From positions 62,001 through 126,000 of the forward strand of contig JAUKUA010000001.1 in assembly GCA_030549175.1 (NCBI GenBank): a stretch of 64,000 nucleotides of DNA. Reading direction: 5' to 3'. This stretch comes from Lasiosphaeris hirsuta. Its lineage: Eukaryota > Ascomycota > Sordariomycetes > Sordariales > Lasiosphaeriaceae. Each line of letters begins with the position of its first letter. The first letter of the stretch is position 1. Below are positions 1-43,500 of this stretch, piece after piece. The notes below the pieces were generated by a model. It was given only the letters and a program-made list of their open reading frames with translations. It had not been told where the DNA came from and made no database searches. The position numbers were made by a program, and so were the translations under genes.

Positions 1-687
1 CGTGAATAGTTACATATGGATGAGGCTGCAGCCAGCGTGACGGACTATCCTCACCTCTCATCTCAGTTGAAGCACTTCAAACGCTTTCATCCCAACGATG
101 CACAATTGCACCTAAAGGAACATAGCTGTTTGGACGAGGTGGTCACACGGCGCACGGGCCACAACAGTTTTTGCAACCCTTATGGCCCGTGCACGTGTCT
201 TCCCAGACAAATCGTGTCAAAAGCAAAGTCATCAGACCTCTTGCCATGTTTCAATGACTACACCGCGACATTCCTCCTCGAGTGCTGGATGAGGTGAGAG
301 CTGGACAAGCAGCATGCATTGTTCCCTGGCTGAAACTCGAGCACGAAGATTTAAAATTTACACCATTTCCATGTGCAAAGGGGGGTGGACATCCAGCATC
401 TTGGCGCAAGTACTCTGGTGGGGCTGTTGTTCTGGACAATTTGTGTGGTAGAGCGCTGAGCCGTTGTGCAGAACTCGCTGTATGGACAATAGGAATACAG
501 CGAGCTTGCGGCACAGCGGGAGACAACAACGAGAACGGCAGGTATTTTAAAACCGCCTGGGCATACAAATACTTTAGTGGTTGGCCCCGCGTTCTCACCC
601 TAAACTGCCAGGTACCGCGCTTTCCCGACAACTTGAAGTCCCCGACAAAACCCCGTCGACAAAATCCCGTCGACAAAACCCCCAAAA
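1..687. other. spacer with a short tandem repeat, no gene seen
   Basis: Open frames here have no recognisable domain and overlap one another on both strands. Just before the methyltransferase pseudogene, 639-684 holds three imperfect copies of a 11-14 bp unit ending in GACAAAA (two contain GTCGACAAAA). Nothing else can be supported. Confidence 0.5.
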
Positions 688-1579
688 ATGAGCCAGTCGC
701 AGAAAACACCGGATCAAATTGCTGCAGCGGCGAAGTCCAATGCAGCGACTTACCTGGCCACAATTCCTCCCGAGATCCATGAACCCGCCCGTCATATTCT
801 CGAGAAATACAGCGGTATCGCTCCTGAAGATGTGGATGCGTACATCCACGACATTGTAAGACCCAATTGTATTCAAGTTTTATTCCCATATAATTATGCT
901 GCTACTGACGACACCACCGCAGCGAGATAAAGCCTGGGCCGTCTTCCCCTACGGCTGCGTCGGCTCCTTCTGGTTTCTGAATTTGCAGCCCACGACGTAA
1001 GACGCCTGATTCCAGAACGTCGCTACACATCTCCAGGCTCCCGAGTCGACAGAGAAATTCCTCGATGTGGGCTACTGCCTCGGCCATGTCATCCGCCACC
1101 TCATTGCCATTAGAGTGTCCAGTGACCGCCTGTACGGCACAGACTTGCAGCCGCACTTCCTTGATCTTGGTTATGAGCTCTTCCGTGACCGCAAACTAGC
1201 TAAGAGTAAGGCCACTTCCGTTGCAGGGGATATGTTGTGTGACGACGACGTTGAACTTGACTAGCTGACGGGTAAGATCGATGTCATTTACGCCGCGTTT
1301 TTTTTTTCCCCTCTGTTTGAACGCGAAGGCTAACTCAAGGCTGCAAAGCGGATGGCCAAGTTCCTGAGACCCGGAAATCCCGACGCCATAATCTTCGGGC
1401 AAAACGAGGGCCCAAAGATTGTGGGGTGGGAGAAGTACGTGCTTGATGCTGAAGGCTGGCACAGCTTGTGGGACGATGTGGGCGAGGTAACTGGGACGGG
1501 GTGGAGGACCGAGATGGAGACGACGGAGAACAGCGATGAGTGGATTCTGGCCGGATCTGGTGTGTATAGGGTGGCGTGA
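688..1579 (+). pseudogene. SAM-dependent methyltransferase pseudogene with four in-frame stops
   Basis: Exon 1 is 688-855, starting MSQSQKTPDQ and ending AYIHDI. A 67-bp intron follows (856-922, donor GTAAGA, branch CTGAC, acceptor CGCAG). Exon 2 runs 923-1579 in one continuous frame. The conceptual product matches fungal class I methyltransferases of the type found near metabolite genes: IRDKAWAVFPYGCVGSF, the SAM motif I region DVGYCLGHVIRHL, then YGTDLQPHFLDLGYELF, and a late block GWHSLWDDVGEVTGTGW. Frame and splice sites are intact, but stops occur at 998 (TAA), 1007 (TGA), 1262 (TAG) and 1331 (TAA). Each can come from CAA, CGA or CAG by one C-to-T change, and three of the four are in a CpA context, as expected for repeat-induced point mutation. 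The gene is dead as sequenced unless the stops are errors. LINE fragments follow directly. Confidence 0.85.
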
Positions 1580-1720
1580 CTTCTATTTCCTAACTTTTTC
1601 GCTGGTTTCGTACATGAAATTGCGATGAGCCCATCTGGATACGCATGTTTTATGAGACGAATCTGGGCACACGAAATTTCCCTTTTTTTTTTGTACCTCG
1701 CCCACGTGACACTGCTCACC
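1580..1720. other. short spacer between pseudogene and LINE tail
   Basis: About 140 bp without coding signal. It contains a T9-10 run near 1684-1693. Confidence 0.5.
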
Positions 1721-1760
1721 CGAAGGCGAAAGCCCTGGACGTTAAACAATTCAATTCAAT
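1721..1760 (+). mobile_element. LINE copy A: 3' tail only
   Basis: About 40 bp that match the last bases of the two larger LINE copies downstream. They share the core CCCTGGACGTTAAACAAT followed by a short (CAATT)n tail. This is the extreme 3' end of a 5'-truncated non-LTR retrotransposon, with copy B starting directly at its tail. Confidence 0.6.
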
Positions 1761-2515
1761 ATGCCCAAGGCAGAGGGCAGAGGGCAGACCGGACCGAGGC
1801 GACCTTCCTGGAAGCCATGGTTAAGAAGGAAGGGTGGGCCCCACCGGTACCACTGGCGGCGGTCAGGTGAAAGGACGGCACACGTGCCCCAGGTACCTCG
1901 TGCGACGGGTGCTACAAGGCCAAGACGAAGTGCGCCGCCCCCGAGGTTGAGGGGCAGCAGTGTGCACGGTGCCTCAAGCGCGGGCTGGAGTGCTCGAGGG
2001 GACCCAGAAAGCACAACCCCCGCGGGGCGAACGACCCCCCCCCGGCGGCACCAGGGACCTACAACCCAACCCAGGCCTTTCAGGTCTGGTGGGAGGCCAG
2101 TCAACGGAAGTACGTTGAGACCAAGGTCCGGAAGCGGAGGCCCTGGGAGCTACGGCTACCGAGGAGGTGGCTCGCGGCCCTGCTAGCGGAAAGAACAGGG
2201 TACGGCGACTTCAAGGCGTACCACGAGCGGTTCGGCCACGAGCCTGGGACGTGGGAAGCGACCTGTGGCAGGTGCGGCCTCACGAAGGCCCCGGGGCACC
2301 TCCTGAAATGTAAGTACAGCGCTGAAGCGCTGGCAAAGACACTGCCACCAGGTGTGTGGGCACCTAGGATACTGACATCCAGGTCGAAGAAAATGCTGGC
2401 CGCGTTCGGGGCGTTCATGGCGGCAAAGGAAGCTTTGGAAAAGGGGGAAGAAAATACCCCAGGTGAGGACGAAGAAGCGGAATGGGCGACGGCCCATGGT
2501 CGCGAGGCAGTTTGA
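1760..2515 (+). pseudogene. LINE ORF2 C-terminal fragment with Zn2Cys6 cluster and CCHC-like knuckle
   Basis: One frame runs from the 5' truncation to a TGA at 2513. It is broken by a single TGA at 1868-1870, where copy C has a sense codon. After that stop the frame encodes a complete fungal-type binuclear zinc cluster at 1901-1996 (C-X2-C-X6-C-X9-C-X2-C-X6-C; ends CDGCYKAKTKC and CARCLKRGLEC), a basic stretch, a conserved LPRRWLAALLAERTGYGDFK block, and the LINE zinc knuckle CGRCGLTKAPGHLLKC. The C-terminus is acidic. The last two blocks are typical of fungal LINE ORF2 C-termini. The Zn2Cys6 insertion is not a usual LINE domain. The reverse transcriptase is missing from this copy. Confidence 0.8.
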
Positions 2516-2762
2516 AACACGTTTTCCTAGTAAAGGGGGCTTTTCTCTACGGAGTTTTTATGTACCTTAGCTGGCGGGAAAGTTGTGAGGGTTGGTGAGG
2601 CCCTCAAACGGCAAATAGGGGCATGTATTGGGCTAGGATTTCGGTAGGGGGATCTCCTTGCGTTAGTCAGCCACTGTCGGGGCCTCGGCCCCGGCACGTC
2701 CGAATCGCCCGGAGCGAAAACCCTGGACGTTAAACAATCAAATCAAATCAATTCAATTCAAT
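1761..2762 (+). mobile_element. LINE copy B: 5'-truncated non-LTR retrotransposon, 3' end
   Basis: This copy carries only the C-terminal part of ORF2, a 3' untranslated region (about 2516-2720) and a tail of CAAAT/CAATT units (about 2727-2762). The untranslated region is clearly homologous to 4866-5110 of copy C; both contain TCTCTACGGAGTTT, CTTAGCTGGCGGGA and GGATTTCGGTAG. 5' truncation is usual for target-primed reverse transcription. Copies A, B and C are in the same orientation, end to end. Confidence 0.85.
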
Positions 2763-2765
2763 AAC

Positions 2766-4020
2766 GGCACCGAGGTGCGTACCCGCTCGGCACTGGCAAG
2801 GCTGGTCTACGCAGTGTGTGCCCACTCAGTAGCCCTGGGCTACTACCCGGACGAGTGGAAGGAGTCGGAGGTGGTCCTCCTCCCGAAGCCCAATAAACCA
2901 CGGGGCACGACGAAGCAGCTCCGGCCCATCGCCTTAATCCCGGTCAACGGGAGAGGGCTGGAGGGAGAGGGCTGGAGCGGCTGGTGGCAAGGAAGCTTAG
3001 CGAAGCGGCGCTACGGGAACGGGTCCTTAGCCCTAACCAGGCGGGGGGGTCCCGAGGCGCTCGGCCACGGACCTCCTTGCCGCGGTAGTCCACGACCTCC
3101 AGGACGCCATGAGGAACGAAGAGGCGGTAGGAATCCTGACGGGCGACATCGACGGGGGCTTTAATAATGTCCAACGGGAGCGCCTGGCCAACAGACTGGT
3201 AGCCCAGGGCTGGCCCCCGGTCCTCGTAAGGTTCGTTAGGAGCTTCCTGTCGAGCCGGAGGGTAACCCTTAGGCTAGACGGGGTGACCCGGCCGACTAAG
3301 GCAGGCCTGCCGCAAGGCTCGCCGCTGTCACCGATCCTCTTCAGCCTATACCTTGAGCTCCTAGCTAAGGGAGAGGGCCGGAGCCTCTACACCGACGACC
3401 TCCTCGCTGTGGCCAAGGGGGGCACCGAAGCCGCGGTAAGGGCCAACCTCACGAGGCAGTTGACGGCAATCGACGCCTGGGGTAGGGCAAACAACATCCC
3501 GCTCGACCCAGCCAAGTACGAATACGCCCTGTTCAAGCCACACAGGGCGGCGCCGAGACTAGGCGAGGACCCCGATTGCGACCCCGGCTCTAGCTCTGAC
3601 TCCGGCTCGGAGGAGGAACAGGCCCCAACCCCGCGGAAGCAGCCCGCCCTCAAGGCAGGCGCTGTGCAAGCCCCCTATAACCCCCTTCTTAAGTGGCTAG
3701 GCGTGTGGCTAGACCCTGGGCTCCAGTTCAAGGAGCATGTCAGGCGAGCGGCGGCAAAAGGAGCCAAGGCGACGGCCCTCTTGCGAAGGGTCGGGGGCCC
3801 GGACAGGGGTCTCCCCCCACACCTCGCGGCGCAAGGCCTTGCGGCGGTAGCACTCCCGAGAATGACCTACGCCTCTGAAGCATGGTGGAACGGTAGGGAG
3901 GCCCCAATCCAGGGCCTACAACGCGTGCTCTACTCGGGCCTCAAGGCCGCCCTGCCAGCCTCAAGACGACGCCGAGGGCGGTCCTCCACGCCGAGGCGGG
4001 GCAGCCCCCGCTCCACTTAG
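2766..4020 (+). pseudogene. LINE reverse transcriptase (frameshifted)
   Basis: The early part reads GYYPDEWKESEVVLLPKPNK then RPIALIPV, the usual finger region of non-LTR reverse transcriptases. A small duplication (GGGCTGGAGGGAGA, about 2950-2972) and a shift near 3045-3050 break the frame. It resumes at about 3055 with ATDLLAAVVHDLQDAMRNEE. Motif A is ILTGDIDGGFNNV, motif B is AGLPQGSPLSPILFSLYLEL, and motif C is SLYTDDLLAV, so the usual YADD is YTDD. The main open frame is 3109-4020. A third shift near 3960 moves the true continuation into the frame of the next entry. Not functional as sequenced. Confidence 0.85.
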
Positions 4021-4865
4021 TCCTCGAGAAGAAGGCCCACGACTACGTAGCCAGGGTACTTAACCTCAAGGAGCAAGGGGTCAGCCACCCGGTAGTCAGC
4101 CGCCTAGCCCACGCCCCGGGCAGGGGCCAAAGGGCTGGCAGGACCCAGGTGACCTTTCTCGAGGCCATGGCTAAGAAGGAGGGGTGGACTCCGCCGGTGC
4201 CGCTGGCAGCCATTAGGAAGAGGGACGGCACCAAGGCTCCGGGGACGACGTGTGACCAGTGCTTCCGCTCCCCCAGGCGGGCTTGCGATGCGTCCCCTGG
4301 GGTGACCTGCAGGTGGTATACTAAGCGGGGGCTAGAGTGCACGAGGGTGAGGGTGTCCACCAAGACGCCGCGAGGCCCGAAAGATGCCCCGCCCGGCCTC
4401 CCGGGGACGTTCAAACTCGTCCGGGAGTTCCAGGCCTGGTGGGAGAGCAACAAGCCAAAATACCGCGAGGTCAAAATACGGAAGAAACGCCCCCGGGAGC
4501 TCGGGCTCCCGAGGCGGTGGCTGGCGGCTCTCCTCGCCGAAAGGACGGGGCATGGAGATTTCAAGGCTTACCACGAACGGATAGGTCACGATCCGGGGAC
4601 GTGGGAGGGTACCTGCGGGAGGTGCGGGCTCACTAAGACCCTGGGACACCTCCTGAAGTGTAAGCATAGCGCGGCCGCCCTAGCGAAGGCGCTGCCGGAG
4701 GGGGTGTGGGCGCCTAGGCTCCTCACCTCGAGCTCAAAAAAGATGCTGGCTGCATTCGGGGCGTTCATGGCAGCAAAGAAGGAACTGGAAAAGGGGGAAG
4801 AAAATACCCCAAACGAAGAAGAAGAAGCGGAGTGGGCGGCGGCCCACGACCGCGGGGCAAACTGA
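3960..4865 (+). pseudogene. LINE ORF2 C-terminal part of copy C, with decayed Zn2Cys6 region
   Basis: This frame is open from about 3960 to the TGA at 4863. It contains VLEKKAHDYVARVLNLKEQG, the FLEAMAKKEGW block shared with copy B, a degenerate zinc-cluster region at 4252-4341, LPRRWLAALLAERTGHGDFK, the knuckle CGRCGLTKTLGHLLKC, and an acidic tail. In the cluster the first loop is one residue longer than in copy B, the linker is shorter (DASPGVT), and the fifth cysteine is tyrosine (TAT where copy B has TGC). The cluster is therefore unlikely to bind two zinc ions in this copy. Confidence 0.8.
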
Positions 4866-5099
4866 TACGCAAGTGCGCTTTCCTTCCCTCTAGAGGGTGT
4901 TGTTTCTTAAAGGGGGCCTTTCTCTACGGAGTTTCTACGTACCTTAGCTGGCGGGAGAGTTGTGGAGGTTGGTGAGACCCTCAAAACGGCAGCAGGTGCA
5001 TGTATTAGGCTAGGATTTCGGTAGGAGGATCTCCTTGTGTTAGTCAGCCGTTGTCCGGGCCCTCGGCCCCGACACGTCTGAGTCGCCAAGAGCGAAAAC

Positions 5100-5190
5100 C
5101 CGGGACGTTAAACAACAATGACGTTAAACAACAATACAATTCAATTCAATTCAATTCAATTCAATTCAATTCAATATCAATCAATCAATC
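5100..5190 (+). repeat. (CAATT)n / (CAAT)n microsatellite tail of LINE copy C
   Basis: About eight CAATT units followed by CAATATCAATCAATCAATCC. The same simple motif, shorter, ends copies A and B, so it is the 3' tail of the element rather than an unrelated microsatellite. Confidence 0.85.
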
Positions 5191-6004
5191 CACTTCACAA
5201 AATACAGCATCACTTGCCAGTATAGTGATTTGAGCCTAGGTCGCCTATTTACCCCTGTTAAAAGTGTCTTGGGTAGTCAGAGGATAGACCGAGATGACAG
5301 AAGTATGTCCCGAGTGCTCCTGAAGGAGACTGTCAGTTTCGATTCTGATGTGCTAAATATAAAGGTACCTGAGAATGCCCAACGGTCCAGTGAGCAGGTC
5401 CAGCTGGAATGACATGTCCTGGTTCTTGTCCACGCCCTTTCCGCCTCGCTTGCCCTGTGTGCGTAGAGTTCCGCCAATTGTGTCTTCATGCTCCCAGCCG
5501 CCCTGTGGCCCGTCGTGAATGAGCCTCAAAAAGTTGTTTTAAGCGCTCAATTGCGAGAAGAGGGAGGTAGTGTCACAGTCTTCGCCTACTCCTAGATAGT
5601 AGAGACCTTGGCGAAGCCGCCCCATGGCAGCGGAGCTCAGAGCTTGGATCTTGGACCACAACTCCGAGCCCATGGCTGCGGAGCTGCGCTCCTACACATC
5701 TTGCACTCTTCGTGCAACTACAATACAATCACCTCACTGCCTACAGGGAGCCCTAGGCCCGTGATATAGATTCCGGAGAACATTAGCTTTGTTGGCTTGG
5801 CTTGCGCGCATATGCGGAAAGCTTTAAACAGCGAATCTAACATACAGTTGTTGGAAACGCTCCTGATCAACTGATCTCAGGCCCACTCCATCCTGTTGGT
5901 CACACAGTCTGGCCATGGCATGTGCTAATCCCACGTGTCCACTGCAGGCTAAAGGTCTAAGGTGTAACTACACCTTGACCTCGGTGAATCCAGCAGTGTG
6001 GCAC
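5191..6004. other. spacer, no gene seen
   Basis: About 800 bp with only short, overlapping frames of random composition. No domain, repeat or RNA gene recognised. Confidence 0.5.
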
Positions 6005-13468: not shown

Positions 13469-13795
13469 GTGTTAGAATATTGCCCTATTGCCCTGCAATC
13501 CCCTGCAGCATCAGGGGGCACAATCCCCCCTAAGGGAGGGGAAGTGTGCTAGCTCCCTAAGGAGCTAGCCCCATAGGGGCCCACCACGTCATCAAGATCC
13601 CCACCAAAGATTCCAGGGGCTTCAGGAAACACTGCACTAATACACACCTTTCCTTTTTGTAGTTTAGTTACCATCTGAACTCCCACACCCGTGGAAGGCT
13701 CTTCTAGAACCTTCCATAACTACAAGAATCTCTCCTCTCTCCTGTAGCTTGTTCTTCCCTTCAAGTAAGCATCAAGTAATACTCCTCAGTGAATT
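13469..13795. mobile_element. possible solo or partial LTR
   Basis: The stretch starting TGTTAGAATATTGCC and rich in short inverted repeats (GGGGGCACAATCCCCCC; GCTAGCTCC / GGAGCTAGC at 13548-13569) ends in pyrimidine-rich sequence. It abuts gypsy reverse-transcriptase debris on its right. The TG start, internal folds and position suggest an LTR, but no matching second LTR is visible in the window, so this is tentative. Confidence 0.3.
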
Positions 13796-14437
13796 GTACC
13801 TTACCAAGCTCTGCAATCCAGTTGTGCAGTGCTCCGCACTGCACTTTGTTTCTTTCCATTCAAAGGCTTTTCCCCTTCCCGTTAGCTCATGCAGTGCTTT
13901 CGCAATCCGTGCGGAATATCGGACAAACTGCCGATAGAAGTTTGCAAAGACCATGAAGGCTTGCATGTCTTCTTGAGGCGTTGGTTGTTGAGGCCAATCC
14001 CGGATTGCCTCCAACTTTGAAGGTTCCATCTCGATCCATCCTGGGCTTATCTTGAAGCTCATGTAGGGTTGATCCTGAACGTGGGACTTGCTCTTTCCAG
14101 AGTGCACTGAGAGTGTCGCGTCTTCGAGTCCTCTCAGTACCTGGTGCACATGCTCTTTGTGCCCTTTGAGAGTCTCCGAGTATATCAAGACATCGTCCAG
14201 ATATACAAACACAGAAATCGGTCTAGGAAGGCGCAACACATGGTTGACCATGTTCTGGAAGGTCGCGGGCAATGTGCAGTGATTCTTGGTAGTGTCTTCG
14301 TTCAGAGCCTGGTAAATCCACAACCAATCGTAGGTCTGTAGTCTCTTTCTTGGGCACAAACAGCACCGGATATCCTGCTTCGGACTGCAATGGTTCAACG
14401 CTAACTTACCCTTGCCAATCCAGGCACTGATTATCAT
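13772..14437 (-). pseudogene. Ty3/gypsy reverse transcriptase fragment
   Basis: The minus-strand frame gives YQALNEDTTKNHCTLP (finger region), the catalytic YLDDVLIYSETLKGH, then FKISPGWIEMEPSKLEAI, FANFYRQFVRYSARIAKALH and ELTGRGKAFEWKE. This is the standard order across the polymerase and connection of gypsy elements. gag, protease, RNase H end and integrase are not found next to it. Sequence before residue about 35 and after about 200 is degraded. It is an inactive fragment. Confidence 0.85.
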
Positions 14438-14486
14438 AAGATTACCGATCTGACCGTTATCGTGACCATGGTAGACTCGAGGTGTA

Positions 14487-14747
14487 ACCCCGTGCTAATG
14501 GCGCCGAGCGAGATTAGGCCGTAGGAGTATGTATCTGTGTAATGCGTGTGGACGGTTTAGGTTATTTAATTTGCCGTATACTGTGCCGCCATTGACTGTG
14601 GTATTGGTTGAGCCGACGACTATGAGGACGGTGCCGTTGCTGACGAGTATAGTTACGGCGAGGCCGACGGTTCCCACGGTGCCGGGTGCTACGGATGTGC
14701 TGAGTGGGCTGCCCGCGGCGATGATGGGGGTGGTGACGGCTGGGTAG
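14487..14747 (+). pseudogene. possible GATA-type zinc finger relic
   Basis: In the frame of 14529 the reading is TPC*WRRARLGRRSMYLCNACGRF. This resembles the second half of a GATA finger (TPxWRR...LCNACG), with a TAA at 14496-14498 and one extra codon. The first CX2C pair is not visible upstream. The rest of the frame, to 14747, is low-complexity (Thr/Val/Pro). It could be chance, since LCNACG is short. Confidence 0.25.
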
Positions 14748-34600: not shown

Positions 34601-35115
34601 TTCGTCTGGGGTTTTCTGGTGAAGAGAGGGCTTCCAGTGTCGTAAGATTGCAGATTGGTATGTACAATAGTAGTACTAGTGCGGTGGAGACAAATTCGAA
34701 GTAAAAAAAAAAAGGTTGAAACTCCGAATGATAGGCGACGCAGGCTGTGGGTGAAAAGGTGTACACAGAGAGAGAGGTGAGATGGGGGTTGGGCGGGGAT
34801 GAGGGGAGAAATATGGAATGCTTTGCGGCTCGTTTCTACATCATGGTGCTCGTTCATTTTGGTACCGTGCCAGCTGATCCTTCAACCAACCCGAGCCTGC
34901 CACATTCCCAACCCCTTGGCGGGGCTGCAGACGCCCCTTTATTGCCCCGGCTGTGAACCGAGATGCCTCTGGGATGCATCCGAGTCACAGGCAGACAAGA
35001 TAGCGGCTTCATTCATTTTGGCTTCAAAAGCTTCACCTACCATGCCCTCTTGGTCCACCCACAATCCTTTTCTCAAGTTTTCCCACTTGGTAATTGATCC
35101 GCCACGTGGCACGCC
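34601..35115. promoter_or_regulatory. shared divergent promoter of two C2H2 genes
   Basis: 515 bp between the two starts. It contains an A12-type run (34701-34712). The minus-strand leader is CT- and AC-rich. No TATA box is clear on either side. Confidence 0.5.
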
Positions 35116-36316
35116 ATGGAAACCAAGGCTGGCGCCGAGCTTTTTTCCTGCTCGGATTGTCCAAGAGCCTTTGCAGGCCGGAGAGACTACAAGTCAGTCG
35201 CTTTCAGTCAGTATAGCTCAGGATCACTCACCTCCTAACCCTTTCCTCTCCAGTCCCCACCGAAAGAAGCATGACCGCCCTTACCAATGCCATATTTGTG
35301 CGGCCAAATTCGCTTTGAATGCGGACCTAAAACGCCATACAGCCCGCCATAAGAAGTCTAATGTCAAACTATCTTGCCCGGAATCGGGCTGTGTTTTCAC
35401 GGCGATCCGAAAGGACCACATCTTGAGACATTTTCGAAAGGTTCATGGACAGAGCAGCAAAGATTTAGGCAACACGGGCCTGCGAGCACCCCAAACGCAT
35501 GGCAGCAATAACCTCAAGCTATATGAGGGGGTCGACCTCGATTTCGAAATGCTCCAAGCTGCGGGCCAGGGTGATCCCAAGGCACTCACAGCGTTAATCT
35601 CCAGAGGAGGAAGCATAACGACCACTGGTGAATTGGGACAAACGCCATTGCATGTTGCATCTAAGATGGGACATGTTGCCACCGTCAGGCTGTTGCTCGA
35701 ACTCGGCGCCGACATCAACTCGAGAGACAAAGACGAACAAACACCACTTTTGTGGGCTGTGGAAGGAGGGAGTGATGGTGTTGTGGCGCTACTACTTGAT
35801 GAGGGGGCTCACTCCGATTCAAAGTATTACTTTCACAGCAACACACCGCTGATGTGTGCCGCCAAGAATGGCTACACAAGTGCTGTGAAGCTTCTTCTCG
35901 ACAAGAGGGTTGACTTCACCGATTCGCCGACGCTGGCATGGGCCGCTGAGAATGGTCATACAGATGTTATACAGTTGCTTCTCAGCAAGGGGGCTAACGT
36001 CGAGTCGCTGGGTGGTAGCTGGGATTGCACGCCACTGGCATGCGCCGCTACAAATGGTCATATGGATGCTATGGAGCTACTTCTCAACAAGGGAGCCAAC
36101 ATCGAGGCGAGGAGTAAATACACTGGCTGGACACCGCTACACGTAGCCGTTATGGGAGGTCACATAGCTGCTCTCGAGCTACTTCTTGGCAAGGGAGCCA
36201 ACACCGAGGCGAGGGACCGTTCGGCCCGGACAGCGCTACTAGTAGCCACTGAGAGAGGTCACATAGGTGTTGTCGAGTTACTTCTTGGCAAGGGAGCGAG
36301 GGATTGGATGACCTGA
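35116..36316 (+). CDS. C2H2 zinc-finger and ankyrin-repeat protein
   Basis: Exon 1 35116-35192, intron 35193-35253 (61 bp; donor GTCAGT, branch CCTAAC, acceptor CTCCAG), exon 2 35254-36316; 379 residues. The intron choice is supported because it completes a perfect finger, C-X2-C-X12-H-X3-H, at residues 12-32. Two more fingers follow at 38-58 and 67-90 (HILRHFRKVH). From about 125 to the end there are about seven ankyrin repeats with GxTPLHxA and LLLxxGA signatures (for example GQTPLHVASKMGHVATVRLL, GWTPLHVAVMGGHIAALELL). The TGA at 36314 falls inside the start of an eighth repeat: the same frame goes on as TPLMRVAKRGKIGVLGLLLK to a TGA at 36452. TGG to TGA would fit, so the protein may be truncated by 46 residues. 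Ankyrins bind proteins; fingers suggest a nuclear role. Confidence 0.85.
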
Positions 36317-37851: not shown

Positions 37852-40578
37852 TCATGCCCGCGAAGTCGCCCTCGCCCCAAGACCCGTCGCAAACTCACCA
37901 CACACCCTCACCAACACATCGAGAAGCGATGCCCTCGCCGGCGAGCCATCAGCCTCGGCCAAAACCTCCGCCAGATGGACGGGCAACTGGCCGATGGGGT
38001 ATGTCTTATCGTCGACCTTGTGCCCAACCCGCGCCTGCATGCCCGCCCCGTACGCGTCATTCAGGGCGGCCAGAAAGGCGAGGGAGTCGTCAAACAGCTG
38101 GAAGTAGTCGAACGTGAGAAGTCCCTCGAGCTGGGAAGTGATGGTATCGTCGAGGACCTGCAACATCTCGAGCGGGGACAACCTGGACAGCGTGGCTTTG
38201 CGCCGGAGCTGCCTCTCCTTCTCCTCGTCGAGCTTGGTGGGCGTCGGCGAGTTCTTTGTCAGCGCTGCGATGCCGGTGTCGGTGGTGCTGCTTGTATTGC
38301 TATTGCTTGTGCAATTCTCCCCAGCAGCATGTTCCTTGGAACAGGTGGTGCAGTTGCAATAAGGCTGTCCAATGGCCAGATTGGCCCGGTCAACTTGTAG
38401 CCGGTGCTTGATGATCTCCCCGAGGTACCACGGCATCTGGCTACTGTCGAGAACCTCCCAAGCATATCTGTCGTACAAGATTTTGCGGATGGCAATGGCT
38501 GGGACAAATTGACTTTCGACGTTACGGGCGCGATCTGGAGCGAGTCTCGTGCCGGCTCCTGTGGCAAGAACTTTGCTAAAATTGTCGATGACCGAGTAGG
38601 GAGACGACTCCCGAAGACCCCGCTTGAACTGACTGCCCTCGCCATAGGTGTTCATGTATGTGCGCATCTCATCCCACGCTGGCAAATTGGGGTCGGAAAC
38701 CGTAGCGGCACTATACAGATAGGCTGCCGCCTCCAGAACGGTGGATGACATGGCAAACTGATGCCCCATTTGACTTTGAACAAGCTTGGCGCGGACGTCA
38801 AGCAATCCCGACCAAACCGGATCATTTTGTAAGAGAAAGAAAGATTCCGGGTCCTCCGACACACCCATCTTCAAAAACCGTTCCTTCTTGTCCTTGAACG
38901 TGAAGTCTTCGAGCATATAGCGGCTGACTTCCCTGATACGTCTATTCCACAGCTGCCGAAAGTCGCGATCCTTCGGGTTACATGTATGAGTCTCTAGGGC
39001 CTCCTTGAGTCGTGCGGCGGTAACTTGGAGTTGCTCAAAGGGGCGGGAAACTTCGGTTTCCATGATGTTGCGGATATCCACCCAAATCTGGAGGGAGAAA
39101 ACGAGGGCCGAAGAGTACCGGTAGCTCCTCAAACAATCCTCCAAATCAAGCAGAAGCTCAGGCTCGGCGGGCAGGATAGGCTCTTCTTGCCCGTTGGTCT
39201 TGAGTGCTTTTAAATGAGCCGTTTCGAGAAACAGCTGCATTGTCACCCTGCTCTCGAACACCCTCCACGTATCAAGGTCGTGGGCGCCATACACGATAGG
39301 CGTCCGGTCCGAGGGGGGGAGCATCGGGATTTTGAACGGAGGAATTCGTTCCAAAGTGCGCTTGATGGCGCAGTATGCCGAAAATGCGACCCAATCGGCT
39401 TCGTCTCTCGAGATTCGTTCGTTTTTTTCTTCCTCGGAAAGGCCTTCGTACGAGTCGTAATCGACATGGTCGAGACCGAAATTGATGAAGAGCATTTCCA
39501 TCATGAACTCGTACTTGGATAGCTCGGGATTGGTGCCCCTCAGTTCCCAGATAAGGTCCCTTTCGAGGTAGTCGAGGAGCTCAAAGGCGGCGTTCGTGAT
39601 GACGGCGAGGGTCCCAAGGGGGACTGACTGATGATACCAATAGTCGCACCAGCGCTCGGCAACGTAGCTTCGGATGATGTTGAAGTCGTCGAAGAAGCAG
39701 TAAACCATCATGTAGAGATCAAGCTCGTCGTTTTGGAGCTCCTCTTCCCCCCCCATGTATTCGACAAAGTCAATCTCGTCGATCCAAGAACCGGCGTCGT
39801 CCCTGCTACTGCCAGCGTTGTTGCCATTCCCGGCAATATTCTGGGCGGGTTGTGGTTTCTGCGTTTTGGCCATCTTGTGCACTTTCTTTGCACCCTTCTT
39901 CTTGCCCGATTTGCGAGCTTTCTTACTGGCAGAGTTGGCTCCCCCCTCCTCGCCAGACTGGTCGCTTTCATCGGCGCCATTTGCGGCGGGCTGGACATCG
40001 AGATAGGTAAACATGTTGCCCAGGTCAGAAATGTCGATCCGAGTGTTGTTCTCCTTGGACTCTTTCTTGGGGGCCCTGCTGGTGGCAGCCGATACAAGAC
40101 CCTCGAGCTTGGCCAGGACTCGCTCGAGGACACTAATGATGTGGGCATGGTTCGCATTGCTCTGGTTCAGCTTGTCGTTGCTGGAGCCCTCCGTAGCGTT
40201 GCTGAAGAACCTAAAGCTCTTCTTGCGCAGGCCGACGACACCGCGGAGAATATTGAGGGGTGCATCGGGGATCTCGTCGGGGTTCGCATGGTCGGCAACG
40301 CGCTGGGCCAGCACTTCGAGCTCTGACCAGTGGACCGATTGGGCGTTGTCTGGGTCGAGATTGAGCGCGGTTGCGGATGTCTTTGCCTTTCCCTTCTTCT
40401 GGCGCCGCGACTGTTGCTGTGCGCTGTTGGCGCTCTCGTTTGGCTGTGCGTCGGGCTCGGGTGGGTTGTTTGCCACGACCTTCTCTGCTGTCTGCTTCAG
40501 CCAGCTTGTGAATTGGGCTTGGCCGAGCTTGTACCGTCTCCACGTGCCGAGCCCATTGAGTTTCCCGCCCGGATCCAT
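37852..40578 (-). CDS. DUF6604-like large fungal protein
   Basis: Single exon, 908 residues, starting at MDPGGKLNGL (40578); an upstream in-frame ATG (40743) would add 55 unlikely residues. The N-terminus WRRYKLGQAQFTSWLKQTAE, then LEVLAQRVADHANPDEIPDA and LNILRGVVGLRKKSFRFF, matches the DUF6604 domain (about 10-280), a fungus-specific helical domain of unknown role. A Lys-rich low-complexity stretch (KKARKSGKKKGAKKVHKMAK, about 215-235) could be a nuclear signal. The rest is helical with many Trp/Tyr/Phe and acidic residues, and has a Cys cluster CNCTTCSKEH near 785-795. No enzymatic motif or signal peptide. Function unknown. Confidence 0.8.
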   Translation of the reverse strand: MDPGGKLNGLGTWRRYKLGQAQFTSWLKQTAEKVVANNPPEPDAQPNESANSAQQQSRRQKKGKAKTSATALNLDPDNAQSVHWSELEVLAQRVADHANPDEIPDAPLNILRGVVGLRKKSFRFFSNATEGSSNDKLNQSNANHAHIISVLERVLAKLEGLVSAATSRAPKKESKENNTRIDISDLGNMFTYLDVQPAANGADESDQSGEEGGANSASKKARKSGKKKGAKKVHKMAKTQKPQPAQNIAGNGNNAGSSRDDAGSWIDEIDFVEYMGGEEELQNDELDLYMMVYCFFDDFNIIRSYVAERWCDYWYHQSVPLGTLAVITNAAFELLDYLERDLIWELRGTNPELSKYEFMMEMLFINFGLDHVDYDSYEGLSEEEKNERISRDEADWVAFSAYCAIKRTLERIPPFKIPMLPPSDRTPIVYGAHDLDTWRVFESRVTMQLFLETAHLKALKTNGQEEPILPAEPELLLDLEDCLRSYRYSSALVFSLQIWVDIRNIMETEVSRPFEQLQVTAARLKEALETHTCNPKDRDFRQLWNRRIREVSRYMLEDFTFKDKKERFLKMGVSEDPESFFLLQNDPVWSGLLDVRAKLVQSQMGHQFAMSSTVLEAAAYLYSAATVSDPNLPAWDEMRTYMNTYGEGSQFKRGLRESSPYSVIDNFSKVLATGAGTRLAPDRARNVESQFVPAIAIRKILYDRYAWEVLDSSQMPWYLGEIIKHRLQVDRANLAIGQPYCNCTTCSKEHAAGENCTSNSNTSSTTDTGIAALTKNSPTPTKLDEEKERQLRRKATLSRLSPLEMLQVLDDTITSQLEGLLTFDYFQLFDDSLAFLAALNDAYGAGMQARVGHKVDDKTYPIGQLPVHLAEVLAEADGSPARASLLDVLVRVCGEFATGLGARATSRA

Positions 40579-43500
40579 GGCAAGTTGGTCTGTTCTCGGT
40601 GCAATTGAGCGCAAATACGTAAGTGACGAGGGAAGACGCAAGTTCAGACGACTGCATCGGCGGGGTTGGGTAGCTACTTTGCCCCAGCAGCTATCACCCA
40701 ACGAACCCAGCACCCAAGGGATTGGAAGGCCACGTCCACTCATATCAACAGCTAGTGACGTAATGAGTGCCCCGCACTAACTACAGTTGGGAAGTCGAGC
40801 TCAGCTTCGGTGTCTCGCGCTTGCTTCGCGGTCGTACCCCGCGGGAGCTTTGCGGGTTCATGTTGTTTGTTTGCTGATGCTTCATCGAGTGACTTCCGGA
40901 CAGCAGCCTTAGAATACATACTTACCATTATAATGCTGATCCCTCCGTGTATATCTCCATCTCATGGTTTATTTGTCCTTTCGAGTCGGTATCGCAAAGC
41001 CTCGTCGCCGCCCCTGTCAATGGTAACGCGCCTAGCTTGATAGTGTGAGATAAGAGAGAGAAAAAGAAAACATGTTCAGAGGAAGGATTTGAAGAATTTG
41101 AAGATTTACCACCCACTCAGAAGGATATTCACAGGGAACTGGCAGTTTATCAGCTCATACCACGATAGGTAATGGATAACGGGTACCAATCGTCGTTCAA
41201 TCTGGCTTTACTTTTAGGTCGGGAAGGCGTGAATTGAAGCATTCCGATTGTGCATCACCGTTTGCTTTTTCCCTCCATCCCATCCTCACTGCGCACTTCG
41301 GATTTCCTTCAACCCGCAATTTGTCATCACGCAGGCTCTCGTGGACCTCAAGTCTGTAAACTCAATTCTTTGCTTCATAAGCTCAAGCATTGCTGAGGCA
41401 GACTGCTGCCAAATTCCTCGTCGGCAACATCCGTCTTACCTGATCCCTTGGCCCGAAAGGATTGCTTATATCCGAGCAACCAGAATCTCACCCCGAGGTT
41501 GAGCCTCATCAAGGACAAAACAACCTCTCGTCATCGCACTTTCCAACTTCTGATCTGGCCGCCCGTCACAATTGGAGCAGCCCAGTTATACTCTGTCACT
41601 ACCCAAGTTCTCGCATTGCCTGTCGAATCCGTGCACGCTCCACTCTTGCCATCACTTTCCTTCGACGTCGGCGCTTTGATGCCTGGAAACTGCGCCTGCA
41701 ACATGTCGGATATTGACCAAGGTTCCATCTCGCAGCTCTCTGCCCTGTATCGGTCTTCGGCGCGCTGGATATCACGCTCTCCTCCAATGACCACGAGACT
41801 AGGATGCCGACTCAAGGAAGGATGTTACAGGCCGGCCGAATCAACATGACAGTTCATTTGCCAAAGCCCCTTGACTTGTTCGCCAAGGATCGGATGGGGC
41901 GTCGTGCTGCGAGTCTAGGAACAGGATGAGAAGGCCATGAGAATCACCACTGGCACGTCCTGCCAATTGCATGACTCGGGGCAGTGTTAGCATGCCTCGC
42001 CAGAGAGATCGCTCTGACCTGTTTCACTCTGGTATGCCATTGCATCATCATGTGTGGGGCTTTGCAGGGACGTCGTCCACCCGAGATCCCCATGGAGGAG
42101 CGTGATGGCTCAGAGTACAAATAGTCCTCGCATAGGAAGCAATCCCCCGTCGAAAGCGTATGTCAACCAATCGCGGCAAGCGAATACCGACACTTCGAGC
42201 ATCCAAACGGAAACGCCACAAACGCGCGGTTGACAGGCGGATCGGATCGGATCACAGGCAAGCCGGTCAGTGTCCACGGCGCTTAGGCGCCAACACATCA
42301 CATCACACGGCTTCCATACTCTGCATCCCCAGAAAAATGATGTATCAAAACGTCCCGCTCTCCATCCGCTGCCTTTCCGCAATAGGAGCCACTAGCAATG
42401 CAGTGTCGTCGAAGTTGACCGAGACCGCCACGTCGCAGTTCACATCTACCTCCCTTCAGAGCCATTTTCCCACCCCGGCGCCCTCGCGGCATGAGTTCTC
42501 AACCCGATCAACTCTAGCGCCAGTAAAATTCGGGGAGGGTGACGCCCTGTCATCTGGCATAAGGAGTTGTGTGTGAGCGTGACTCGCTCGCTGGATTCGC
42601 TCTTACCGCTTTTAGTCCCGCTGATTCACAATGTGGACGAATAATCACCAAGATCGCCAGGGACGTCGCTGCCGCACGCGCATGCCAAGTGGCCCCGGAA
42701 TCCTTCGGTCCTGGAGAACGACACGGGGAAAATATTAGATGTGACCAGCACGAATTGCCAAGCCAACATGTTGTCGTCACAAACTCCCGGAGAGTGACGG
42801 CGACATCCCAGACAATGATGGCCGGGGAAGGGAGGGAACCATGTGGCGCCGCAGAACGAACGGCAAACGGATGTAGAATCAGTGAATCACCACCATTCGG
42901 GACGTCCTCCGCATCGCCCACAGCATGCAGCCGGTGTCATGTGCTGTGCGATAGCTGGGTAGGGCTCGTTCGCACAGTATGCGCACACGGACCGCGAGCA
43001 CTTCAATCGGACTATCGACAGCCAAACGACGCCCGTAGCCCGCAGCCCGCCCTGACAAGCACCTCGGTCCCAGGTACCCGGCTACGCCGCTTGCCCATCC
43101 AAACCCTTCGCCGACATTGAGTTGATAGCAATGATGTTTGTCGCGTCCGCCTCACTCTTCACTCTGTCGTTTGCCAGAGTGCAATGGCCGCCACGACGGG
43201 AATCATTGGCTTATCATGTGATGTGGATAGACGGCTACTACCACGCATATGAGCAGTCGCATGGAGCCTCGAGGGCCAAATGGCCAAAAAAAAAAAAAAA
43301 AAAGGAAAAAAAAAAAAGAGACAGCAACAAGAACACAGCCCTTGCGCAGACTGCACGAAATCTGCCACACCAATGAATTGCCGATGCAGGAAAGCCGTAT
43401 TGATCTCGTGCCTGTCGCCCGCCACGGGAGCATCCGGCGGACCGGTGCGGGAGTGCCAGCGTGGCTCGCATATCTGTTCATCATGAGCAATCCTGTTTGG

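Follow-up and report, generated by a model that had tools for sequence, protein, structure and literature searches.

Does a retrotransposon of Lasiosphaeris hirsuta encode the DNA-binding domain of a fungal transcription factor within its own polymerase protein, and what might such a domain do there? The question arises in a window of 64,000 nucleotides (bases 62001–126000 of contig C1; genome of 44.4 Mb on 14 contigs), where truncated copies of a long interspersed nuclear element (LINE) lie in series. In one of them, copy B, a sequence-only reading had described a complete Zn2Cys6 binuclear cluster inside the second open reading frame (ORF2), and we found the six cysteines in frame at 1901–1993, within the open frame at 1871–2515, with the spacing C-X2-C-X6-C-X9-C-X2-C-X6-C as it had given it. 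We think it probable, with some reserve, that these copies derive from an apurinic/apyrimidinic endonuclease (APE)-type LINE, with endonuclease, reverse transcriptase (RT), Zn2Cys6 cluster and CCHC zinc knuckle, which captured a host transcription-factor DNA-binding domain that would act at the target DNA.

The cluster resembles fungal Zn2Cys6 domains in several subfamilies

A search of the genome with the 214 amino acids (aa) of copy B returned 89 matches, and the cluster was present in at least five subfamilies of this one genome, given here with their motifs and copies:

Subfamily A: CDGCYKAKTKC; window copy B, L010, L011 and L017
Subfamily B: CDNCFRRREKC; L012, L016, L019 and L020
Subfamily C: CDQCFRSPRGACD; L013, L015 and window copy C
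Subfamily D: CDQCFRSHPPAACD; L014, L024, L027 and L035
Subfamily E: CDRCHRRKRKCKGELPCERC; L046, L047, L049 and a second copy in L010
Subfamily F, decayed: L026
E-like copies: L064 and L069

Zn2Cys6 domains follow the pattern C-X2-C-X6-C-X5-12-C-X2-C-X6-8-C, which subfamilies A, B and E share and from which C and D deviate (X7 and X8 in the first loop). When scanned with the Pfam profile for this family (PF00172, cut-off 21 bits), copy B scored 20.0 bits (E 7.6e-4), just under the cut-off, and copy C gave no match. The cut-off was passed by four of seven scanned cluster-bearing sister pieces (L040, 23.1 bits; L041, 23.2 bits; L046, 36.4 bits, E 5.5e-9 for this subfamily E cluster; L047, 36.1 bits), with related copies reaching up to 36–40 bits. 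At least 6 of the 129 matches in a PF00172 scan of the genome (150 of 181 candidates scored) fell within copies of this LINE. We then compared the clusters with structures in the PDB. The five matches of subfamily E at E ≤ 0.01 were, by name, Pho7, regulatory protein C27B12.11c, PUT3, proline utilization activator and LAC9. The ten of subfamily A at E ≤ 1 (LAC9, LEU3 twice, ethanol regulon factor, Pho7, C27B12.11c and GAL4 four times) were individually weak (best E 0.012) and all named as Zn2Cys6-type fungal regulators. We regard the feature of copy B as confirmed, on sequence grounds, to be a genuine Zn2Cys6 binuclear cluster in a LINE ORF2.

The cluster shares a frame with endonuclease and reverse transcriptase and stands in the place of RNase H

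The sequence-only reading had also assigned the cluster to ORF2 itself and had suggested looking for PF00172 and RVT_1 in the same frame. Both were found above cut-off in P0004 (L041:1001-4153, minus strand, contig C11), a frame of 1051 aa with 12 in-frame TAA/TAG stops (read as X) and 0 frameshifts. Pfam placed Exo_endo_phos_2, Exo_endo_phos, RVT_1 and Zn_clus in this one frame, all above their cut-offs (endonuclease, 34.7 bits; RVT_1, 80.2 bits; Zn_clus, 21.8 bits), followed by a CCHC knuckle; an endonuclease upstream of RVT_1 in one frame is the arrangement of APE-type LINEs. The cluster region was not read in another frame (such a reading would have told against the assignment), and copies on many contigs carried this module in the same position, bearing out the view that it belongs to the element and did not come from a local recombination.

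The best database matches to residues 592–1051 of P0004 were P0005 and P0006, two proteins with endonuclease, RT and RNase H (29–30% identity over 39–44% of the query; ~8,000 candidates were scored in this and in each other homologue search outside the genome). RNase H occupies residues 928–1070 of P0005 and 938–1082 of P0006. No RNase_H match was found by Pfam in P0004 or in L063, a locus of a sister LINE family (C11:326500–330500) with a 601-aa open frame at 1792–3597 that carries neither RNase H nor Zn2Cys6. From the thumb anchor (TTPxAxL-like) to the WW/YW anchor we counted 158 aa in P0004, which has the cluster, 275 aa (P0005) and 277 aa (P0006) where RNase H is present, and 115 aa in L063, which has neither module. 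Measured between these anchors, the cluster is where RNase-H-bearing relatives have RNase H. The RNase H between RT and CCHC that marks the Tad clade was not found, and none of 44 own-genome matches to P0005 covered its residues 871–1054 (38 of 123 candidates scored), so that among the candidates scored this genome showed no relative with RNase H. A first homologue search outside the genome had given P0001 and P0002, two pieces of the RNase H type, and P0003, an RT protein of a moth. Relatives without the cysteines, which the sequence-only reading had named as evidence against itself, do exist (sister L063/L066; P0005/P0006), but they are other families, and the difference is one of presence or absence of the module.

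Copies in the window

Bases 1–5200 of the window hold a tail-only remnant, copy B and copy C head to tail, each beginning inside the preceding TTCAA/CAAT tail:

1725..1762, + strand: tail-only remnant of the 3' end of an earlier copy, host of the copy B insertion (from sequence comparison)
1763..2762, + strand: 5'-truncated LINE copy B, which begins within the tail repeat of the preceding remnant and has its own 3' tail to ~2762 (ends approximate)
1868..1870, + strand: in-frame TGA directly before the copy B open frame (from the sequence)
1871..2515, + strand: open frame of copy B, 214 aa, with cluster, linker, CCHC knuckle and acidic C-terminus
1901..1993, + strand: Zn2Cys6 cluster of copy B (subfamily A), CDGCYKAKTKC...CARCLKRGLEC (from the sequence; PF00172, 20.0 bits)
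2264..2311, + strand: CCHC knuckle of copy B, CGRCGLTKAPGHLLKC (from sequence and alignment)
2763..5190, + strand: 5'-truncated LINE copy C (subfamily C), which begins within the copy B tail and has its own tail with many TTCAA units (ends approximate)
3037..4020, + strand: reverse transcriptase frame of copy C (RVT_1, 60.3 bits)
4251..4340, + strand: Zn2Cys6 cluster of copy C, fifth cysteine changed to tyrosine (TAT at 4317–4319; from sequence and alignment)

Copy B is a 5'-truncated fossil; because of this truncation and the TGA at 1868–1870, it is a fragment and not an intact ORF2. Copy C had been taken to keep the domain of copy B in decayed form. One cysteine has indeed been lost, but mere decay of the copy B domain is ruled out, copy C belonging to another subfamily with its own spacing (C-X2-C-X7-C-X7-C-X2-C-X6-C). 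Since the wider first loop is common to the less decayed L013 and L015, the fifth cysteine alone represents decay. The TGY-to-TAY changes and new stops of decaying copies fit the repeat-induced point mutation of filamentous ascomycetes, which may have produced them.

Cysteines are retained as the residues between them diverge

The least decayed copies of the subfamilies retained all six cysteines, and the intervening residues diverged faster than the rest of the C-terminus. A flank, GTxCD, and the block surrounding the cluster could be aligned across A–E. With one least-decayed row from each of these subfamilies, 8 of 27 ungapped columns were invariant, including all six cysteines; the P of 9.5e-5 obtained by counting points to more than chance but is indicative only, because the cysteines were matched up manually in building the alignment (MAFFT did not bring the third cysteine of C and D into register). 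Among 100 cysteine codon cells (five of six positions, 20 copies), 73 were TGY and 23 TAY, leaving 4 of other kinds. On inspection, alignment offset or a frameshift accounted for three of these 4, and the remaining one was a cysteine-to-serine change in L024. L031 did not pass the coverage filter for this table, which includes, from the clusters of E, G and L069, only the E copy at L010. Where the matched part was free of stops (8 copies), tyrosine had replaced 2 of 48 cysteines. That divergent subfamilies keep the cysteines in their least decayed copies speaks for selection on these residues.

The ratio of nonsynonymous to synonymous change (dN/dS) outside the cluster was 0.12–0.27 (13 pairs between subfamilies A–D, 6 rows). 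The proportion of nonsynonymous differences (pN) was 0.40–0.45 in the cluster and 0.07–0.21 outside it in the 11 pairs involving A or B; for C versus D it was 0.13–0.14 and 0.14–0.19. Cluster dN/dS could be computed for 6 of 13 pairs (0.09, 0.15, 0.28, 0.38, 0.47 and 0.65). Across 11 pairs, nucleotide identity was 47–69% in two 75-column windows over the cluster, 58–81% in the adjoining ones and mostly >72% farther off. The cluster has thus changed faster than its surroundings, which could reflect relaxed constraint, diversification or exchange.

Trees of the two stretches disagreed. In the cluster tree (99 nt), a B+C clade was rejected (approximately unbiased test, p 0.0001) and C+D was present (support 91/89, below star); in the downstream tree (495 nt), B+C was present (99/97) and C+D was rejected (p 0.011). 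This conflict suggests that the cluster was exchanged between subfamilies, by recombination or template switching. The evidence is good but not final, because the groups were picked after the alignments had been viewed and the cluster stretch is short.

Part of the copies insert at one site of an inverted-end repeat

The LINE 3' end, GCGAAAACCCnGGACGTTAAACA, occurred 64 times (≤2 mismatches). Thirty-eight distinct tails in the examined loci, a non-random sample, were followed by another truncated copy (8 tails), by TGCCGTTTTCAGGGTT of an inverted-end repeat (8 tails) or by other DNA (22 tails, counting the worn repeat form at L049). This repeat (GTAGTGCACCGTGACGCTC), with its fixed LINE insertion site TGCCGTTTTCAGGG, was seen in L039 (reverse complement, 5638 and 8253) and in L071–L077, with 24 sites genome-wide; within the target repeat the site reads TGCCGTTTTC. 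At 14 of the 24 TGCC sites a tail of this LINE lay 6–67 bp upstream on the same strand (14 of the 64 tails), the occupied sites being partly non-independent (at the site, L015 lies inside an older tail). We also examined twelve sites for which no tail had been listed, comprising 9 of the 10 among the 24 TGCC sites and 3 others: seven (L071–L077) were unoccupied and continued on the left into the body of the repeat itself, four bore worn LINE tails (L078, L079, L081, L082), and L080 was ambiguous. With a 93-nt junction probe, 7 of 40 matches began at position 52–54, the LINE start, and unoccupied copies matched across it.

At L039 the site sequence flanked the LINE array on both sides, as a 14-bp target-site duplication with two mismatches on the right; the left junction was visible at L047, and by inspection ATTAATGAGT flanked L015 on both sides. 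The copies thus show 5' truncation, 3' tail repeats and target-site duplication, the hallmarks of APE-type LINEs. The 5' ends of subfamily E copies differed in place between loci, which argues against their being copies of one composite element. For part of the copies, therefore, we observed recurrent insertion at one position of a repeated target together with empty sites, as in site-specific elements.

Three further observations concern tails. Different subfamilies lay in tail-to-head arrays, inserted in CAAT/TTCAA tails of earlier copies (window 1725–5190; L010, L011, L013, L015, L032, L033). The tails of L017 (subfamily A) and L029 (D-like) both abutted another flank (GACTTCTCCCGAACATC...), which may be a second recurrent site. 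At L063, of the cluster-less sister family, a CAATC tail was followed by other DNA.

A proposed role for the cluster and its alternatives

We propose that the element acquired its DNA-binding domain from a host transcription factor, either when RNase H was lost or later. The cluster would fold round two zinc ions and, in the course of target-primed reverse transcription, bind double-stranded DNA in or close to the target, so helping to fix the insertion site. The residues between the cysteines would set DNA preference, which would explain why they changed quickly and why the module was exchanged. Because subfamilies A, B and E retain basic residues in the first loop and C and D do not, the role may differ or have decayed among subfamilies. 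A bolder version, which we put forward tentatively and believe rather less than the capture itself, is an exchangeable targeting cassette: a LINE lineage would have shed RNase H, adopted the transcription-factor domain, fixed its cysteine scaffold and had the reading residues replaced or swapped, while homing to one site of a terminal-inverted-repeat transposon and to the tails of its own kind.

Several results weigh against capture for action at target DNA. The clusters of C and D have no basic run between the second and third cysteines (FRSPRGA, FRSHPPAA), and L042, L043 and L045, of these two subfamilies, gave no PF00172 match in Pfam, so that some of the clusters seem ill suited to DNA contacts of the classical kind. 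AlphaFold prediction on the two window copies had a mean predicted local distance difference test score of 41. Synonymous change in the cluster was saturated in 7 of 13 pairs, dN/dS was 0.28–0.65 in four of the six computable ones, and the fast-changing loops could reflect relaxed constraint. Fifty of the 64 tails do not abut the fixed site, and the endonuclease alone could suffice for the site preference. None of the four subfamily D tails (L014, L024, L027, L035) lay at the repeat site; with a C-like cluster in D, no link between cluster type and target type was seen in these small numbers. The tree gives no order for the three-way split between E/G, A–D/F and the cluster-less sister family, so that both gain of the cluster and its loss in the sister are possible. 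A search with the aligned C-termini found no relatives outside this genome among the ~8,000 candidates scored.

Could a cluster of true Zn2Cys6 descent now serve, within the RT complex, to retain the element's RNA or some other protein instead of reading target DNA? It adjoins the CCHC knuckle; C and D kept their cysteines without the basic run that contacts DNA in regulators, and purifying selection persists between them (cluster dN/dS 0.09 and 0.15). Known Zn2Cys6 clusters are DNA binders, however, A, B and E retain their basic loop residues, and the insertion site is fixed, and we consider this account unlikely, though the most serious competitor. A six-cysteine zinc motif arisen within the LINE, for example from duplicated knuckles, and merely resembling the regulator domain would suit the variable loop lengths and the PF00172 matches, weak for A and B and absent for C and D. 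The subfamily E match at E 5.5e-9, its five PDB matches to Zn2Cys6 regulators by name, and the alignment of GTxCD and the surrounding block across A–E make such an origin improbable.

That the element uses the cluster to regulate its own transcription, or as a decoy for the sites of host regulators, and not in insertion, is suggested by the domain type only, and no evidence of a regulatory role was found, though none was looked for; with the cluster embedded in ORF2 between RT thumb and CCHC, and no other Pfam regulator domain in P0004, we hold it very improbable. To an artefact, in which a host Zn2Cys6 gene was joined to a LINE by local recombination or an open frame arose by chance, we give next to no credence: copies B and C are broken and the window lies 62 kb from the contig end, but the module recurs in place on many contigs and in one frame with endonuclease and RT. 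That continuous frame rules out host-gene fusion or a chance frame for this genome.

To our knowledge, site choice by APE-type LINEs is largely an open matter. If capture for action at target DNA is right, this matter could be put to a direct test on a compact, well-understood DNA-binding domain within ORF2 that comes in natural variants, has apparently been swapped and has a defined genomic target; the element would also exemplify the capture of a host transcription-factor domain by a retrotransposon. The findings further suggest that this LINE group can do without RNase H.

Other features of the window

13772–14494, − strand: another reverse transcriptase fragment, like that of a long-terminal-repeat element (RVT_1, 37.7 bits)
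34781–36316, + strand: 511-aa frame with many ankyrin repeats, and C2H2-like motifs ahead of them by eye
37852–40776, − strand: 974-aa frame (DUF6604, 178.7 bits)

Comparison with known systems

Among the open-access papers listed by our literature searches, judged by title and abstract opening, we found no LINE with a Zn2Cys6 domain. Like Zn2Cys6 transcription factors (PF00172; GAL4, PUT3, LAC9, LEU3, Pho7), the element has the six cysteines, their spacing and the flanks of a binuclear cluster; unlike them, it carries the cluster inside a retrotransposon polymerase protein, with no other Pfam regulator domain in P0004. The sister family L063/L066 of the same genome likewise has RT, thumb and CCHC block, with the CAATC tail in L063, but lacks Zn2Cys6 and RNase H (L063 by Pfam scan, L066 by inspection). 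Tad-like fungal LINEs share endonuclease and RT in ORF2, and P0005 and P0006 also have the C-terminal CCHC region with its HGDF block. In the part of the source available, LINE-Tad-RtPc5 of Paracoccidioides has an ORF2 with endonuclease, RT and an RNase H of 145 aa (PMC4427930); these Tad-like LINEs carry RNase H, whereas here none was found and the Zn2Cys6 cluster stands in its place. As described in excerpts of their sources, lepidopteran TRAS is a LINE with a captured helicase (PMC5563155) and Utopia a site-specific LINE (PMC4640811). As far as these excerpts go, the LINE described here resembles TRAS in its extra ORF2 domain and Utopia in its fixed repeated target, with another domain, another target and another LINE lineage.
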